Below the pieces are notes generated by a model, which was not told the origin of the DNA, ran no database searches, and saw only the letters and a program-made list of their open reading frames with translations. A DNA stretch of 53,336 nucleotides. Origin: Methanosaeta sp. PtaU1.Bin060 (lineage in GTDB: Archaea; Halobacteriota; Methanosarcinia; Methanotrichales; Methanotrichaceae). How positions within the stretch are numbered: the stretch's first letter is position 1; the number at the start of each line of letters is the position of its first letter. The translations under genes and the position numbers were made by a program. Of the stretch, positions 17,564-37,138 are shown piece by piece. Location of the stretch: NCBI GenBank assembly GCA_002067365.1, contig MVRK01000018.1:1-53336 (forward strand). The letters run 5' to 3'.

Positions 17564-17793
17564 CCCTCCAGGTACTGATATAGATCGCGCCCATAATTAG
17601 CAGAGAGCTAGTTATGGCAACAGTATTTAAAAGCAACCTCAATCCGGGCACTCCACCAAGAGACTGATTTGGCAGCTCGATGGTACAGATGTGCATCGGC
17701 TGTATAATCTGATGATATTCCTGCGATCTGCAATCCAAAGGTTTATTCTCTTAGATCCTCCAATCAGTGGAGCACAATAGGGAGGGAATGCAT

Positions 17794-19374
17794 ATGGCCT
17801 TCAAAGCAAAGTATTTGGCATTCATTTTGCTTCTGGGGATGATATTTTCCGCTGCGGTATGCGAAGGAGAGTATAGGAACCTTTTACTCGGAGGGATCAA
17901 CGAGGAAAAGCCGGTATGTGATGAGCCTTGTTCCAGTTATGTCAATGCCAACTATAAAGAAATTGCTTCCGATCTGAATGCATATTACTTTCCGATGTAT
18001 TATGGTTCACAAGGGGACAACATTGACGAAGTGCAAAAAGCTGCTACAGGAGACGCAACAGATGAGAATGGGCTGACTAACGCTGCTCTGCACGGCACAG
18101 AAAACAATCCAAAAGAGTATGATACCATTATAGCTTATTCTGGTGGAACTGCCACGGCTTTAACAGCTCTTGCAAACTACGACGAATACAGAGTCAAGTG
18201 CAATACACTGATATTGGTCTCGCCTATGGCCGCTGCAATTGGGGAAGGATATGAGCAATTTACAGAAGTAGCAACTTCCGTAGCTACTGCAGTCGGCGCA
18301 ACTGTGGCAGGTACAGGTACTGCATTGGCTTCAGCATCAAATCCCGCGAGTGCTCTGGCGACCCCAGTGACAGTGCCGGCAGCAACTGTTGCTGGTGGGA
18401 CTGTAACAGCTGCTGTTGTTGGAGGCGGTCTTGCCAAGGCTGCGGACATAAAAGCCAATTCTGTATTTGAGGACCAGATCAAAACTATACTGAAAAACAA
18501 CCCCGACCTTAAAATCATTGTAATTCAGGCACCAGACAAGGATAAGCCGAGCATGTTCAGTGGACTGTATCAATACACGTTTGACGAGGAGGACAAAGCA
18601 TTTGAAGAATACAAAGGCAGGATCCAGGTGATCAACGCGGACGCTGAACTGACGAGTACCGGCGAACAGGCCCACAAAGATCTTTTCTTCAATTATGCCA
18701 AAACACATCTATCATCAAACACCGATGGCGGTGCAGTCGAATTCCATCCCGAAGATCATCCGGATGCAGCCAAAGATGATACAAAATCGGATCAATTAGC
18801 GAGCAAACTGGGGATTGGAGCTATGCAATGGCAAGAAGAAAATCCTGCAGATTCTCCTCAGTCTGAGACGGCCAAATCCACTGATGAATCAAATGCAGTA
18901 GAAAGCTTCGGCGTTAGGGCGTTGCATCCTGGAACGGATCAGCAGTCAGATGTTTCGGGGACAAAAGAGGTCATGGGTATCAGGAAAATGCATCAATCTG
19001 CCAAGCCATATGGTGAAATTGCCCAGCCGATTGAGACGGCAAAATCCACTGATGAATCCAGCTCGAATGGCAACTCCATAGTCGGCAAGTGGAATGTCAT
19101 ACAGATTACAACACCCCACGAGCTTTTCGGGGGCTCTATCAAGATCCAATTTGTCGCAACCTTTGATGAGGATGGCTCTGTCAATAGACCGAGGCAGCAA
19201 CAAGGCCGCATGTGGATTGATGCGTCAACCGGAAGATGGACGCAAAACGGAAACGATGTCAAATGGACCATTGCGAAGGTGACCCACGAAGGAGACATCC
19301 AAGGAGATCACATGAGTGGCGTGATATACTCAAGCGGCGGTACGAGCAGCTGGTCTGCAGAAAGATTGGGGTGA
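17794..19374 (+). CDS. Secreted protein with alpha/beta-hydrolase-like and C-terminal beta domains
   Basis: 526 residues from the ATG at 17794, which has AGGGAGGG 7 nt upstream (GTG at 17767 and ATG at 17788 are worse). A signal peptide (MAFKAKYLAFILLLG...AAVC) is followed by a region with 'YDTIIAYSGGTATALTALAN', resembling a nucleophile elbow, 'NTLILVSPMAA', and 'DLKIIVIQAPDKDK', i.e. alternating strands of an alpha/beta hydrolase. An Ala/Val/Thr/Gly-rich insert (about residues 150-225) breaks this domain. A charged linker carries ETAKSTDES twice. The C-terminal 85 residues 'GNSIVGKWNVIQ...SSWSAERLG' form a beta-rich lipocalin-like repeat domain. The function is unknown; catalysis is uncertain because the acid and His are not clear. 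Confidence 0.75.
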   Translation: MAFKAKYLAFILLLGMIFSAAVCEGEYRNLLLGGINEEKPVCDEPCSSYVNANYKEIASDLNAYYFPMYYGSQGDNIDEVQKAATGDATDENGLTNAALHGTENNPKEYDTIIAYSGGTATALTALANYDEYRVKCNTLILVSPMAAAIGEGYEQFTEVATSVATAVGATVAGTGTALASASNPASALATPVTVPAATVAGGTVTAAVVGGGLAKAADIKANSVFEDQIKTILKNNPDLKIIVIQAPDKDKPSMFSGLYQYTFDEEDKAFEEYKGRIQVINADAELTSTGEQAHKDLFFNYAKTHLSSNTDGGAVEFHPEDHPDAAKDDTKSDQLASKLGIGAMQWQEENPADSPQSETAKSTDESNAVESFGVRALHPGTDQQSDVSGTKEVMGIRKMHQSAKPYGEIAQPIETAKSTDESSSNGNSIVGKWNVIQITTPHELFGGSIKIQFVATFDEDGSVNRPRQQQGRMWIDASTGRWTQNGNDVKWTIAKVTHEGDIQGDHMSGVIYSSGGTSSWSAERLG

Positions 19375-19467: not shown

Positions 19468-20895
19468 TCAAGCGGCCTTCCTCATCTCCCCAGCAGAGTG
19501 ATCAGCAGATCGGCCAGTCGCCAGGCTGCCGCCCACATAGGCGATGGTCCCGCAGATCAGGCCGATGAAGACTGGATGAATCAGCGGATTGCCGAAGAAC
19601 TGCCACACCACAACAGATCCAAAGGATGCCAGAAGGCTGACCACAAAGCCCGCGGATGTCCCGCGATCCCAGTACAGTCCGAAGATGAGGGGCACGAAGA
19701 CGCAGCAGGCAATTACGCCCATGCTCACTGATACGAGTGGCACAATCTGCTCGGGGACGTTCACAGCGAGGATGGCGGCCGCAGCTATTATCGCTAGTCC
19801 CACAGCCCTTGTCATCAGAAGCACTTTGTTGTCAGAGACAGTCGGCCTGAGGTATCGAAGGATGTCGGATGTGAGAGACGTCGTCGTTACCAGGACTATG
19901 GCGCTGATAGTGGACATGGCAGCAGATATGGCAGCAAGCAAGATCAATGCGTCGAACCCAGGCGGCAGCATTGTCTTTGCCAGGTAGGGCACGAGGCCGT
20001 CAGGGTTCTTGATGAAGGGCTGGAGAGCCTCAGGGCTTATGGCACCATAGGCGAGGATTCCCAGGGAGAATATGCAGAAGGCGTATATGGCAATGGATAT
20101 CGGCCCGTAGATCCCTGCGAATCGCACCACGCGCGTGTCCTTGGCCGAGAATATCATTATCAAGAGATCAGGCAGCGCCAGCAGCCCAAGGCTGATGGAA
20201 AAAGCCATGCCTAAAGTCTTCTGCCAGGGAACCATCTCGCCGCTCATGTTGGTTATGGCCGCAGGGATGTTGTTCCAGATCTCCATTCCGCCTCCTGCGT
20301 TGAGAAGGCTGCCATAAAGCAACACGGCTCCTCCAAGCATCAGAACTCCCTGGATGAAGCCTATCCAGATGATGGCTGGCAGGCCGCCGATGGCATAGTA
20401 GACGGCCACTATGATCATGGCGATTATCAGGCCATCTATGTAGGTCACTCCTATGAGCCCCTGGAATAATGTAGCGCAGCCTTTGAAGATGGGAACCAGG
20501 TAGACGGCATAAAGGATCAGCATGATAGCCGCCAGGATGACCTTGCCGGTGGGCGAGTTGTGCCGCCTCTCCAGAAGCTGTGGAACTGTCTTGGCATCGT
20601 ACTCTTTGGCCATCGCCCAGATCCTTGGAGCTATCAGCCAGGCGAGGCATGCAAAGCCTACGTGGAAGAAGGCTGCATAGACTACCCAAGGAAGCCCTGC
20701 GACAAGGCCGTACCCGCCTCCGCCAAGGAAGGAAGCTGCGCTGAAATAGGCTGCTGTGTAGGCGATGCCTATGACCGCCGGGAAGGCTATGTTTCTGTCA
20801 GATAGCACAAACCCGGAGAAGGTGCCCTGCCGCAGCTTGATGGAAAGGAGAACTATCAATGCCACATAGACGACAAGCAGGATCTGATTAAGCAT
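19468..20895 (-). CDS. Sodium:solute symporter (SSS family)
   Basis: 475 residues with about 13 hydrophobic helices of the SSF fold. The family-typical segments 'GIAYTAAYFSAASFLGGGG', 'DAKTVPQLLERRHNSPTGKV', 'GGLPAIIWIGFIQGVLMLGG' and 'LAAISAAMSTISAIVLVTTT' (sodium-site helix 8 serines) are present. It takes up an organic solute with Na+; in a Methanothrix-like organism a carboxylate such as acetate or pyruvate is an attractive guess but not shown. TGAGGCGATC precedes the ATG. Its start overlaps the end of the 30-codon membrane ORF at 20888-20980, which suggests a small subunit. It is divergent from iorA. Confidence 0.92.
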   Translation of the reverse strand: MLNQILLVVYVALIVLLSIKLRQGTFSGFVLSDRNIAFPAVIGIAYTAAYFSAASFLGGGGYGLVAGLPWVVYAAFFHVGFACLAWLIAPRIWAMAKEYDAKTVPQLLERRHNSPTGKVILAAIMLILYAVYLVPIFKGCATLFQGLIGVTYIDGLIIAMIIVAVYYAIGGLPAIIWIGFIQGVLMLGGAVLLYGSLLNAGGGMEIWNNIPAAITNMSGEMVPWQKTLGMAFSISLGLLALPDLLIMIFSAKDTRVVRFAGIYGPISIAIYAFCIFSLGILAYGAISPEALQPFIKNPDGLVPYLAKTMLPPGFDALILLAAISAAMSTISAIVLVTTTSLTSDILRYLRPTVSDNKVLLMTRAVGLAIIAAAAILAVNVPEQIVPLVSVSMGVIACCVFVPLIFGLYWDRGTSAGFVVSLLASFGSVVVWQFFGNPLIHPVFIGLICGTIAYVGGSLATGRSADHSAGEMRKAA

Positions 20896-20980
20896 TAGAT
20901 CGCCTCAATGTGATGATCAATGTTACTATAATCATTACTACAATGGATATGATCAGGGCTAGGTAAGGCATAGGCATCAT
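20888..20980 (-). CDS. 30-aa membrane ORF overlapping the symporter start
   Basis: ATG at 20978-20980 (or next codon ATG) to TAA at 20888-20890, overlapping the symporter ATG at 20893-20895 in another frame. The product MMPMPYLALIISIVVMIIVT... then a basic end LRRSNA: one transmembrane helix with positive-inside tail. GAGGGATAGCC precedes it. SSS transporters of the MctP/PutP type often have a tiny upstream membrane partner, which makes this overlap credible. No homologue is known to me. Confidence 0.6.
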   Translation of the reverse strand: MMPMPYLALIISIVVMIIVTLIITLRRSNA

Positions 20981-20982
20981 GG

Positions 20983-21039
20983 CTATCCCTCAGTCTGCTG
21001 AGTGCGGCCTATGGCCATTGGCGAAATCGTGTTGTCCAT
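20983..21039 (-). CDS. Possible 18-codon leader ORF upstream of the symporter pair
   Basis: ATG at 21037-21039, stop TAG at 20983-20985, product MDNTISPMAIGRTQQTEG. GAGGGATTGC lies just before the ATG, mirroring the GAGGGAT before the 30-codon ORF that starts 2 nt after this stop. Very short; could be a translated leader or chance. Confidence 0.25.
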   Translation of the reverse strand: MDNTISPMAIGRTQQTEG

Positions 21040-21096
21040 GCAATCCCTCAAACTATGTACTACTTTGTACTATGATGTCCGAAGAAGAACAATTCA

Positions 21097-21107
21097 GTTT
21101 AAATATG
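21097..21107 (-). promoter_or_regulatory. TATA box of the symporter transcript
   Basis: CATATTTAAAC on the minus strand, placing the mRNA start about 21075-21080. Between it and the first ribosome site, TGTACTA occurs twice, 9 nt apart (21053-21072 region on the plus strand), a possible operator or leader element. The rightward gene iorA has its own TATA candidate GGCATATACG at 21283-21292. The rest of 20981-21348 holds no other gene that I can see. Confidence 0.5.
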
Positions 21108-21348: not shown

Positions 21349-23121
21349 TTGAAGCATCTCATGTCCGGAAACGAGGCGATAGCCCGGGGAGCCTATGAGG
21401 CCGGGGTGACAATCGGCGCAGGCTATCCGGGAACTCCGTCTACTGAGATCCTGGAGAACCTGGCCAAGTACAAGCCAGAGGTCTATTGCGAGTGGTCGCC
21501 GAACGAGAAGGTGGCATTCGAGGTGGCAGCAGGCGCATCGATTGCCGGAGCCAGATCCATCGTCACTATGAAGCACGTTGGCCTGAATGTGGCAGCAGAT
21601 CCCCTGATGACATTGAGCTACATCAGCGTGGAAGGCGGTTTTGTCGCCTGCGTGGCAGACGATCCAGGAATGCACAGCTCTCAGAACGAACAGGATACCA
21701 GAAACTATGCCCGCTATGCCAAGGTTCCCCTCTTCGAGCCGTCTGACAGCCAGGAGGCCAAGGACTTTTTAAAGCTAGCCATCTCGATCTCGGAGAGGTA
21801 TAAGACCCCCGCCATCCTCCGATCCACCACGCGAGTCGGCCACTCAAGAAGCCTCGTCTCCTGGGATGAGAGGGTGGCCTCGCCGAATAAAGTCGGCCTC
21901 GTGAAGAACCCTCCGCGCTTCGTTCCCATCCCCGTCTGGGGAAGGCCAATGCGCCAGAGGGTTGAGGAGCGGCTAGGTCTCCTCAAGAGAGAGGCAGAGG
22001 CATCCCCTGCTAACCGCATCGAGAGGCGCGACAGCTCCCTTGGGATCGTCACGGCCTCAATCTCCTACCAGTATGTGCGTGAGGTCTGGCCAGATGCCTC
22101 GGTGCTGAAGCTCGGCTTCTCTTATCCCTTCCCCGACGACCTGATCAGGGAGTTTGCGTCAGGAGTCGATGAAGTCCTGGTTGTGGAGGAGCTGGACGAT
22201 ATACTGGAGCAGCACATAAAGTCCCTCGGAATCGCCTGTCAGGGAAGGAAGTTCGTTTCGGGGATGATGGAGCTCTCTGTCGACAGGCTGCTCGCCTCAA
22301 GGGCTCTGATGGAAGGAAGAGAGCCACCGAAGGAAGAGCCGCCTCTCTTCTACGATGAGCTTCCGCCAAGGCCCCCTGTCCTATGTCCTGGCTGTCCCCA
22401 CAGAGGCGTCTTCTATGCTCTCGGAAAGCACGATGTTGTAGTGACAGGAGATATAGGCTGCTACAGCCTCGGGGCCTTCAAGCCGCTGGACAGAATGGAC
22501 ACAATCCTCTGCATGGGCGCGGGAGTGTCCATGGCCCATGGGATGCAGAAGGCAGGAGAGCCCAAGAGGGTGATAGGTGTAGTGGGCGACTCGACATTCT
22601 TCCACTCTGGGATCACCGGGCTCCTGAACATCGCCTACAACAGGGGGTCCTCGACCATTATAGTTCTCGACAACCGCACGACGGCAATGACAGGCCACCA
22701 GGATCATCCGGGCACCGGAAGGACTCTTCAGGGGGACGTTACTAGGGCCATATCCATCGAGGATATCGGAAGAGCCTGCGGGATTGAGCGCGTCTGCGTT
22801 GTCAACCCCTATGATCTTGAGAGCACACTGAAAGCCATAGACGATGATGTGAACTCCGATGAGCCGTCGCTGATAGTCTCAAGGGCACCCTGTCCTCTGC
22901 GAGAGAGGAGGCGGGTCGGGGCTGTGCGAGAGATAGATGCAGACAGGTGCAAGGGCTGCAAGATCTGTCTTAAGATCGCCTGTCCGGCCATAGAACTCTC
23001 GGCCGATAAGCCTCAGATCAACGAGATATTCTGCGGAGGCTGTGGCATCTGCGAGCAGATCTGCCCGGCAGAGGCGATCTATGCACAGGGTGCAGCCTCT
23101 CAGGCGGAGGCCAGAAAATGA
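21349..23121 (+). CDS. iorA: Indolepyruvate:ferredoxin oxidoreductase, alpha subunit
   Basis: 590 residues. With IorB it decarboxylates aryl-2-oxoacids (indolepyruvate, phenylpyruvate) to acyl-CoA, passing electrons to ferredoxin; the reverse direction makes aromatic 2-oxoacids from aryl-acetate in methanogens. N-terminal 'GAGYPGTPSTEILE' is the pyrimidine-binding domain; the thiamine-PP/Mg motif is 'GVVGDSTFFHSGITGLLNIA' with 'VLDNRTTAMTGHQDHPGTG'. The C-terminus carries two 4Fe-4S motifs, 'CKGCKICLKIACP' and 'CGGCGICEQICP'. The start is TTG at 21349 with GGTGGAGAG upstream (ATG at codon 5 is an alternative). Stop overlaps iorB by 4 nt. Confidence 0.97.
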   Translation: MKHLMSGNEAIARGAYEAGVTIGAGYPGTPSTEILENLAKYKPEVYCEWSPNEKVAFEVAAGASIAGARSIVTMKHVGLNVAADPLMTLSYISVEGGFVACVADDPGMHSSQNEQDTRNYARYAKVPLFEPSDSQEAKDFLKLAISISERYKTPAILRSTTRVGHSRSLVSWDERVASPNKVGLVKNPPRFVPIPVWGRPMRQRVEERLGLLKREAEASPANRIERRDSSLGIVTASISYQYVREVWPDASVLKLGFSYPFPDDLIREFASGVDEVLVVEELDDILEQHIKSLGIACQGRKFVSGMMELSVDRLLASRALMEGREPPKEEPPLFYDELPPRPPVLCPGCPHRGVFYALGKHDVVVTGDIGCYSLGAFKPLDRMDTILCMGAGVSMAHGMQKAGEPKRVIGVVGDSTFFHSGITGLLNIAYNRGSSTIIVLDNRTTAMTGHQDHPGTGRTLQGDVTRAISIEDIGRACGIERVCVVNPYDLESTLKAIDDDVNSDEPSLIVSRAPCPLRERRRVGAVREIDADRCKGCKICLKIACPAIELSADKPQINEIFCGGCGICEQICPAEAIYAQGAASQAEARK

Positions 23122-23705
23122 GCCCCGACACTGAGATCAGGAGCGTCGTGCTGGCTGGTGTTGGGGGCCAGGGCATACTTCTGGCGAGCGAGATACTGGC
23201 GAGGACTGCTATGGAGACTGGATACGACGTGAAGACAAACGAGGTCCACGGGATGGCCCAGAGAGGAGGATCTGTGATTGCGCAGATACGCTATGGCCCA
23301 GAGGTGCACAGCCCGCTTGTGGCCAAAAAGACGGCCGCCGTCTTGGGTGCCCTGGAGCAGGTTGAAGCTATGCGGTTTGCAGACTACCTCTCCCCCGGAG
23401 GGCTGGCAGTGGTCAGTTCTCAGGCGATAATGCCAGTGACTGTATCCATGGAGGCTGCCAGATATCCTGAGGATATAGAGGCCAAGCTCAAGAGAGCCTT
23501 TCCGAGAATGGTTTACATCAGGGCTGCAGAGATGGCATCAGGCCTTGGAGATATACGCACCGCAAACATTGTGGTTCTGGGGGCCATCTCCAAGGGGCTT
23601 GACCTGCAGCAAGATGCCTGGAAGGAGGCGATATCCTCCTGCGTCAAGGAGAAGTTCAGGGAGATCAACCTCAGGGCGTTTGAGCTGGGAAGGCATATCG
23701 AATGA
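23118..23705 (+). CDS. iorB: Indolepyruvate:ferredoxin oxidoreductase, beta subunit
   Basis: 195 residues, the gamma-domain subunit of the 2-oxoacid:ferredoxin oxidoreductase family. 'VVLAGVGGQGILLASEILART' is the CoA/dimer-domain Gly-rich loop, and 'TNEVHGMAQRGGSVIAQIRYG' is the family signature. ATG overlaps the iorA stop (ATGA), giving equal synthesis. The final residues run into the repeat-bearing spacer before the ligase gene. Confidence 0.97.
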   Translation: MSPDTEIRSVVLAGVGGQGILLASEILARTAMETGYDVKTNEVHGMAQRGGSVIAQIRYGPEVHSPLVAKKTAAVLGALEQVEAMRFADYLSPGGLAVVSSQAIMPVTVSMEAARYPEDIEAKLKRAFPRMVYIRAAEMASGLGDIRTANIVVLGAISKGLDLQQDAWKEAISSCVKEKFREINLRAFELGRHIE

Positions 23706-23730
23706 AGAGAGATCTGGTGAATAGCGATCG

Positions 23731-23775
23731 ATTGAAGGGCGATTAAGCGAAGGGCGATTGAATGAAGGGCGAATA
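23731..23775 (+). repeat. Three 15-bp tandem repeats across the ligase start
   Basis: Units ATTGAAGGGCGATTA (23731-23745), AGCGAAGGGCGATTG (23746-23760) and AATGAAGGGCGAATA (23761-23775). The third contains the ATG at 23762 and its first codons AAG GGC GAA; the first two units read xxG AAG GGC GAT stop in that frame, so the translation start region seems to have been duplicated. Confidence 0.8.
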
Positions 23776-25039
23776 TCACAATGAGAAGATGGAGACTGCG
23801 ACTCGTGAAGAGATTGAGGAGCTGCAGACACAGAGACTGAAGGCGGTTGTCAGGCATGTTTACCAGTCGAACCAGATATACAGGAAGCTCTTCGACTCCC
23901 ACGGCGTCCGCCCCGAGGATATCAGGACTCTGAAAGATGTGGCCAAGCTGCCCATGACCAACAAAGAGATCCTCAGGGAGAGCTATCCACTGGGCCTCTC
24001 CTGCGTCCCGAGAGAGAGCATAATCGAGATGCATATGTCGAGCGGCTCGACAGGAACGCCTGTCATAATGCCCTACACCTCATCAGACCTGAATCAGTGG
24101 GCCGAATGCATGGCCCGGTGCTATCGCATGGCAGGAGGGCGGCCGGGCGATGCAGTCCAGATCACGCCCCTCTTCGGGCTCTTCAACGGAGGATTCGGAA
24201 TGTACCACGGGGCGCGGGCTGCAGGGCTGTTCGTGATCCCGGCAGGTCCCGGAAACACTCAAAGGCAGGTGCGCCTGGCAAGAGACCTGAAGACCCGCAT
24301 CCTGACGGGCGTTGTCAGCTACGGCGTGCGCATCATAGAGGTCATGGAGGAGATGAACGAGAAGCTCCCAGACCTGGAGATAGGCATCTTCGGAGCCGAA
24401 GCGTTCTCCGAACCCATGAAGAAGCGGATCAGCGACGGCCTTGGGATTGAGGTCTTCGATATATATGGCATGACTGAGACTGGCGGAGTGGGCACCCTTG
24501 GCCAGGACTGCACTGCCCATGACGGCATACACGTCTGGGAGGACCACTACATCGTCGAGATCATCGATCCAAGAACGGGAGAAGCCGTAGAAGACGGCGA
24601 GACGGGAGAGCTGGTCGTCACCGCCTTGACCCGCGAGGCTCTGCCGGTTATCAGGTTCAGGACAGCAGATCTGACAAGGGTCCTCTCCAGAGATGCCTGC
24701 GACTGCGGCAGGTCTCATGTGCGAATTGCGCCGATAACAGGACGAATCGATGATATGATCATAGTGAAGGGCGTGAACTTCTTCCCGAAGCAAGTGGAGC
24801 AGACATTGATGCAGATTCCGGGCGTTGGCAGCAACTACCAGATAATAGTTGAAGAGGCCGACGGCGTGAATGACATCCGGGTGAATGTGGAGGCAGAAGC
24901 GGGAGTCACAGGGTTCATGGTCGAGAAGGCACTCAAAGAGGCGCTGGGCTTCAGCCCCAAGGGCGACGTCTATCCGATGGGCAAGCTTCCGCGCACAGAG
25001 GGAAAGGCGCAGAGGGTGTTTCACAAAAAGATGAGCTGA
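23762..25039 (+). CDS. Phenylacetate-CoA ligase-like, AMP-forming acyl-CoA synthetase
   Basis: 425 residues, the usual PaaK size. P-loop-like AMP motif 'MSSGSTGTPVIMPYTSSDL', the adenylate-forming motif 'DIYGMTETGG' and the C-terminal 'RIDDMIIVKGVNFFPKQVE' (A8 hinge and CoA domain) are intact; 'CDCGRSHVRI' is the Cys-bearing stretch of PaaK. Such enzymes activate phenylacetate, indoleacetate or similar aryl acids with ATP and CoA, supplying or consuming the acyl-CoA of IorAB. The start ATG at 23762 lies inside a triplicated 15-bp sequence; Met10 is an alternative. Aryl specificity is inferred from the neighbour iorAB. Confidence 0.92.
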   Translation: MKGEYHNEKMETATREEIEELQTQRLKAVVRHVYQSNQIYRKLFDSHGVRPEDIRTLKDVAKLPMTNKEILRESYPLGLSCVPRESIIEMHMSSGSTGTPVIMPYTSSDLNQWAECMARCYRMAGGRPGDAVQITPLFGLFNGGFGMYHGARAAGLFVIPAGPGNTQRQVRLARDLKTRILTGVVSYGVRIIEVMEEMNEKLPDLEIGIFGAEAFSEPMKKRISDGLGIEVFDIYGMTETGGVGTLGQDCTAHDGIHVWEDHYIVEIIDPRTGEAVEDGETGELVVTALTREALPVIRFRTADLTRVLSRDACDCGRSHVRIAPITGRIDDMIIVKGVNFFPKQVEQTLMQIPGVGSNYQIIVEEADGVNDIRVNVEAEAGVTGFMVEKALKEALGFSPKGDVYPMGKLPRTEGKAQRVFHKKMS

Positions 25040-36999: not shown

Positions 37000-37003
37000 G
37001 AAA

Positions 37004-37138
37004 TTAATATCTGATAAGTTAATATTTAACAAGTTGATATTTAACAAATTAATATTTAGGAGAATGATATTTAATAGATTGATATTTGATGAATTGATAT
37101 TTGATTGATTGATATTCAATAAATTAATAGTTTCGGTT
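37004..37138. repeat. 15-bp tandem repeat, eight units plus partial ninth
   Basis: Units start at 37004, 37019, 37034, 37049, 37064, 37079, 37094, 37109, with a decayed ninth at 37124. Consensus TTRATATTTRAYARA. Exact phase is kept throughout with no indels. In one frame each unit would read Leu-Ile-Phe-Asn-Lys-like, but a TGA in unit 7 and no start or ribosome site make this noncoding. Confidence 0.9.

Follow-up and report, generated by a model that had tools for sequence, protein, structure and literature searches.

SGLT2 requires a small membrane protein, MAP17, which contacts M13 at the periphery of the transporter according to the account in PMC9616851, and MgtS, MgtR, MgtU and AcrZ, membrane peptides of 28–49 amino acids, are described in PMC10710835 as modulators of transporters, in their case from families other than the sodium:solute symporter (SSS) family. 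NCBIfam in addition holds a model of 33 positions, NF045580, named 'symporter small accessory protein', for a one-helix protein of about 33 aa encoded immediately 5' of an SSS symporter. No report on small accessory proteins of symporters, or on NF045580, turned up in a literature search, and the terms MAP17, accessory, small protein, subunit, DUF485 and TMs are all absent from the text of a review of prokaryotic SSS transporters (PMC7918813). Here we analyse a locus in the window (the whole 53,336-nt stretch of Methanosaeta sp. PtaU1.Bin060 DNA) in which a 30-codon frame, ORF2, very probably encodes a real and usually overlooked partner of an SSS symporter, since it is conserved in two methanogen families. 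The features of the locus are as follows.

19468–20895, minus strand: SSS transporter, 475 aa (PF00474)
20888–20980, minus strand: ORF2, predicted to encode a one-helix microprotein of 30 aa; the stop codon is reached 8 nt into the symporter gene
20983–21039, minus strand: ORF1, an 18-codon upstream ORF, kept as a frame and not as a peptide
20985–20991, minus strand: GAGGGAT ribosome-binding-type site of ORF2, within the end of ORF1 (read from sequence)
21043–21049, minus strand: GAGGGAT ribosome-binding-type site of ORF1 (read from sequence)
21056–21080, minus strand: three half-sites, GGACA/GTACA/GTACA, with a 10-bp period; likely operator common to trp genes
21097–21107, minus strand: TATA-box-like element CATATTTAAAC of the mini-ORF/symporter transcript (from sequence; similar box in relatives)
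21349–23121, plus strand: iorA, indolepyruvate ferredoxin oxidoreductase alpha (TIGR03336, 722.9 bits, cut-off 650.9)
23118–23705, plus strand: iorB-like gene, indolepyruvate oxidoreductase beta (NF005325, 227.3 bits, just below the cut-off of 230)
23762–25039, plus strand: phenylacetate-CoA-ligase-like AMP ligase (best NCBIfam match TIGR02155, E 4.4e-124, 414 bits, short of the cut-off of 646)

Along the minus strand, in the direction of transcription, the order is TATA-like box, half-sites, GAGGGAT, ORF1, second GAGGGAT, ORF2 and symporter. ORF2 runs from an ATG at 20980 to a stop codon at 20888–20890 and specifies the product MMPMPYLALIISIVVMIIVTLIITLRRSNA; the symporter ATG (20895) sits within its end, giving an 8-nt overlap, while ORF1 (ATG 21039, stop at 20983, 18 aa) ends 2 nt short of the ORF2 ATG, both as the initial annotation of this DNA had described. 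Its two GAGGGAT sites are likewise present, lying 4 nt before the ATG of ORF2 and 3 nt before that of ORF1, and are thus nearly but not exactly equally placed as it had claimed. The TATA box that it had located at 21097–21107 was found there, a similar box lying upstream of the same leader elements in relatives, and what it had called a tandem TGTACTA motif in the leader takes the form, on the plus strand, of TGTAC (21056–21060), TGTAC (21066–21070) and TGTCC (21076–21080). We infer that the TATA box, ORF1, ORF2 and the symporter lie on a single transcript. Elsewhere in the window, positions 37001–37129 hold a tandem repeat of AAATTGATATTTAAT (period 15, 8.6 copies), and a 535-aa ORF on the plus strand (17767–19374) with a repeated TAKSTDES segment gave no convincing family in a Pfam scan.

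A search of 99 related genomes for orthologues of the symporter identified them in 45 genomes, at 63–100% identity, and also found other SSS paralogues. The upstream DNA was read at all 45 orthologue loci (L002–L046), two of which lie on contigs that end before the region (L009 and L013), leaving 43 readable. By its named relatives, the window falls within Methanothrix or beside it. The initial annotation had proposed an accessory-helix ORF and named conservation of its frame as the test: a homologous mini-ORF precedes the symporter in 43 of the 43 readable loci, the window counted, in both Methanotrichaceae and Methanosarcinaceae, with pS about four times pN. Of these 43 mini-ORFs, 42 extend over the symporter ATG, and in 32 the overlap is exactly 8 nt. 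The 30 distinct members share the consensus xMPLPYLALLxSIxxMLxITFFxxLRRxHD, in which Y and T are invariant and P, L and M are invariant or nearly so, with an N-terminal PxPY turn and a positively charged LRR tail whose AGG-AGG codons double as the Shine-Dalgarno sequence of the symporter. At L045 the mini-ORF, found via a search word added after the first look, has no PxPY motif, and the symporter carries an in-frame stop (TAA); at L046 the symporter gene is in pieces (split frames) and the mini-ORF is intact. When 294 genomes from across the phylum were searched with an ORF2 profile, 22 matches fell at E < 1e-12, each just before an orthologous symporter; the other matches were weak (E 6.7e-4 or worse), mostly short stretches within longer frames. 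In this 294-genome search, ORF2 occurs only beside orthologues of the SSS symporter at 19468–20895.

The pattern of substitution in ORF2 reveals purifying selection at the amino-acid level. Across 21 disjoint nearest pairs, compared over 23 codons that stop before the arginine codons doubling as a Shine-Dalgarno sequence (L045 omitted), pS was 0.397 and pN 0.096 (pN/pS 0.24), and across the 820 pairs of 41 sequences, compared over 24 codons (L045 and L046 omitted), pS was 0.69 and pN 0.27. For the 179 pairs with pS below 0.6, the values were 0.48 and 0.22, as against 0.32/0.29 and 0.17/0.34 in the shifted frames, where the synonymous-over-nonsynonymous excess is smaller or reversed. By codon position, differences were fewest at the second (0.15) and more frequent at the first (0.41) and third (0.57), the pattern that a hydrophobic helix would be expected to show. 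ORF2 is thus predicted, with near certainty, to be a translated protein; some of its conservation may reflect membrane compatibility alone, since substitutions are tolerated in single hydrophobic helices. That frames this short are translated is plausible in this class, given the upstream ORFs in 5' leaders of Methanosarcina mazei for which PMC11456600 gives ribosome-profiling results.

Searched against Pfam and NCBIfam, singly and as 30 members, ORF2 gave nothing beyond chance hits to membrane helices, sorting signals among them. ORF2 shares with NF045580 the gene layout seen in the members of that family examined, a one-helix small ORF directly before the symporter, at all 43 readable loci. 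It differs in sequence, NF045580 proteins following the pattern GIDDPxIWxAY...YGxxxW, and in standing before other SSS paralogues: ORF2 falls short of the 35 bits that the NF045580 model demands of a member, none of the 30 ORF2 members matched that model at E <= 10, and profile comparison of the ORF2 family with four NF045580-type sequences returned a probability of 2%. NF045580 itself was found in 85 of the 99 related genomes, beside other SSS paralogues, and once in the window's own genome, where it adjoins a different SSS paralogue and not the symporter downstream of 20888–20980. A third type of mini-helix (alignment A3; GLPxxTF...P...LLLxWALRW, 30–31 aa) was present in at least 6 of 20 other SSS loci fetched. 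Like ORF2, it overlaps or immediately precedes an SSS paralogue and occurs in the same genomes, but its sequence is unrelated (profile-comparison probability 2.8%), and three members scanned had no meaningful Pfam or NCBIfam match. The A3 family was found in 25 of 294 genomes of the phylum, an SSS gene adjoining it in all 20 loci given; its loci (L127, L128, L131, L132, L138 and L145; L162–L181) lie in Methanotrichaceae and other families of the phylum. Judged by these comparisons, ORF2 is a new family within an already known kind, the small symporter accessory proteins, with no model in the libraries searched, because it matches nothing in Pfam or NCBIfam while NF045580 covers a different accessory family. 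The view that such short helices are rarely annotated must be qualified, since NCBIfam already models one other family of the kind. With at least three unrelated sequence families at SSS loci, one-helix partners of SSS symporters are, by the same comparisons, a theme in these archaea.

The symporter itself falls well within the SSS family (PF00474, E 1.2e-49, 169.8 bits, gathering cut-off 22.8), and its predicted fold (mean pLDDT 80.8) matches vSGLT, SGLT1/2 and the sialic acid symporter SiaT, with a best E of 6.7e-12, as well as SGLT2–MAP17 structures. MAP17 with human SGLT1 and SGLT2 resembles the present pair in that a small membrane protein sits at the periphery of an SSS-fold transporter, and we propose by this functional analogy that ORF2 gives its symporter peripheral support of the SGLT2–MAP17 kind; MAP17 is eukaryotic, larger and encoded elsewhere. 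Given the conservation described above, we consider it likely that ORF2 is an accessory of the symporter encoded just downstream. An alternative would make ORF2 a membrane microprotein for regulation or turnover, for example an inhibitor or protease adaptor like MgtS or MgtR, and not a structural subunit. Peptides of 28–31 aa that regulate transporters are among those covered by PMC10710835, and ORF2 is encoded in one unit with its presumed target; yet constant co-encoding and a fixed overlap suggest fixed co-production, not conditional inhibition, and we regard this reading as unlikely.

As to what an accessory ORF2 and its symporter might transport, iorA, iorB and the phenylacetate-CoA-ligase-like gene are transcribed divergently from the symporter unit (a 15-bp repeat, 3.3 copies, spans 23724–23772 between iorB and the start of the PaaK-like gene). 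A divergent iorA lies near the symporter in 17 of 35 named loci (L047–L081), 7 of the other 18 having too little upstream DNA; among the 28 named loci that have 3.6 kb or more of upstream sequence or a partial iorA, 11 show no iorA nearby. The iorA near the symporter in Methanolobus and Methanococcoides is only about 40% identical to that of the window, which indicates that the link between iorA and the symporter is old or was made more than once. Since, as PMC3462420 and PMC4162585 describe, Methanococcus maripaludis uses indolepyruvate oxidoreductase to make aromatic amino acids from aryl acids, and since the operator discussed below also precedes trp genes and a PaaK-type ligase while iorA-iorB-paaK lies divergent, an importer of aryl acids or aromatic amino acids is our best guess, one that we hold somewhat more readily than not. 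The ORF2–symporter pair appears to belong to the aromatic amino-acid supply system of the cell.

TRP boxes read TGTACA, and the half-sites of this leader recur in relatives: at least two of them stand 10 bp apart in 38 of the 43 leaders and at least three in 25, where shuffled sequences gave a mean of 0.7 and a maximum of 3 for the former, a comparison to be read knowing that the pattern was defined after the leaders had been seen and that related loci are not independent. In the window array, the automatic best 16-mer is CGGACATCATAGTACA, and AGTACAAAGTAGTACA is an overlapping step of the same array. Exact matches to TGTACATNATAGYACA occur at 7 sites in 99 genomes, and to the reversed pattern at none; of the 7, four lie in symporter leaders, one before trpC-trpB, one before trpD-trpF and one before a PaaK-type ligase, the trp genes being named by eye from their translations. 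The exact 16-mer operator was not enriched in the window's genome (5 sites, against 12 for the reversed-pattern control). Of the 23 trpC loci scored with a weight matrix built from the symporter leaders, 14 had a forward site reaching 12 or more close to the start; 7 of the 30 trpC loci, all from the window's own family, were not scorable, and a whole-locus scan found a site in one of these. The matrix also placed a site above 11 just upstream in 12 of 24 trpD loci of the window's genus, including that of the window's own genome, and none at the 6 loci of weaker Glycos_trans_3N matches; at trpE loci there was a single weak shared site within the gene region in 7 of 23.

The putative operator is thus common to trp biosynthesis genes in part of the loci, as in a TrpY-type trp regulon. 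TrpY, described in PMC6737238 for Methanothermobacter, represses a methanogen trp operon and binds TRP boxes; the present sites would resemble this repressor-bound operator of a trp operon, and differ in that they additionally precede the symporter and a CoA ligase. Because the array is also found before trp genes and the PaaK-type ligase, the tandem motif is likely a transcription operator common to trp genes, and the trp-type palindrome before a PaaK-type aryl-CoA ligase in one relative (L117:1501–1516, upstream of 98–1435 on the minus strand) suggests a wider aromatic regulon. Were the TGTACA array instead an RNA element or a chance occurrence, its overlap with the expected transcript start and the lack of enrichment of the exact 16-mer in the window's genome would be readily understood, but the identical phased architecture before trpC, trpD and the PaaK-type ligase in relatives speaks for a trp-type operator and makes this alternative improbable, and folding z-scores scattered around zero weigh against an RNA element in particular. 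Leader RNA structure was rejected as the main mechanism, as z-scores for 22 leaders ranged from -2.1 to +1.9 with no common shape.

The leader frame ORF1 behaves differently from ORF2. The 18-codon frame had been proposed in the initial annotation to be chained to the symporter, and what is conserved is a coupled frame and not its peptide. A leader counted as positive if it held a frame of 12 or more codons whose start codon was accompanied by a Shine-Dalgarno-like word and whose stop fell between -18 and +4 nt relative to the start of ORF2. Of the 43 leaders, 36 qualified, against 4.2–5.2 expected from dinucleotide shuffles, as did 20 of 24 representatives, against 2.0–2.8 expected. The start codons, Shine-Dalgarno words and distance limits were fixed after the leaders had been seen, and the loci, being related, are not independent; for both reasons the tail probabilities overstate the significance. 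This test supersedes an earlier shuffle test with starts picked by eye, and hence biased, in which 22 of 22 representatives scored against 8.4 expected; at L042, L044 and L046, ORF1-like frames that fail the rule are readable by eye. Junctions with ORF2 typically read TGATG, TAATG or ATGA. Inheritance alone is unlikely to explain the frame, since its interiors cannot be aligned and its length varies from 13 to 28 codons, and its absence from three related Methanothrix loci (L010–L012), where ORF2 directly follows the leader's ribosome site, implies that ORF1 is dispensable there.

Close pairs of ORF1 gave pS 0.148 and pN 0.100, a pN/pS of 0.68 like that of its other frames and unlike the pattern of amino-acid-level purifying selection; we therefore rejected ORF1 as a conserved peptide. 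Attenuation through Trp, Phe or Tyr codons was likewise rejected, the window's ORF1 having no aromatic codon and other ORF1 peptides few and unaligned ones. The simplest reading makes ORF1 a coupling leader, which we put at an even chance. That ORF2 too is a coupling leader only, its product functionless, would suit the way it runs across the symporter ATG in 42 of 43 loci, the Shine-Dalgarno role of its arginine codons and the example, within the same leader, of a coupled frame without peptide conservation, but is very doubtful given purifying selection upstream of those codons, the contrast between its pN/pS of 0.24 and the 0.68 of ORF1, and its invariant or nearly invariant Y, T, P, L and M.

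The explanation that we favour combines an accessory subunit (ORF2), a coupling leader (ORF1), a trp-type operator and aromatic uptake, and as a whole we think it probable. The ORF2 product would be a single transmembrane helix and an obligate accessory subunit of the downstream SSS symporter, probably binding its periphery and so stabilising or tuning it. Coupled translation would supply the helix along with the symporter: ribosomes that finish ORF1 would be handed on to the start of ORF2, and ribosomes that finish ORF2 to the start of the symporter gene, so that for ORF1 the frame alone would matter and the peptide would not. The unit would be transcribed from the TATA promoter under the GTACA half-site array common to trp genes and, with the divergent iorA-iorB-ligase genes, would bring in aryl acids or aromatic amino acids to feed the synthesis of aromatic amino acids. 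Within this scheme, we infer the translation of ORF2, complex formation, the effect on transport, the substrate and the identity of the regulator.

A bolder version, which we offer tentatively, is that in these methanogens each SSS class has its own co-encoded one-helix subunit, with at least three unrelated families standing together in one genome, and that here a sequence-free ORF1, kept across the divergence of two archaeal families purely for ribosome delivery, gates subunit synthesis. The 30-residue peptide, the operator and the iorA-iorB-ligase genes offer handles on the function of a symporter subunit and on aromatic uptake in methanogens. If the favoured explanation is true, a dedicated one-helix partner would commonly accompany the SSS transporters of prokaryotes, which are mostly regarded as single-polypeptide machines; this would form a prokaryotic parallel to SGLT2–MAP17, and both annotation and heterologous expression of SSS transporters would be missing an essential part.
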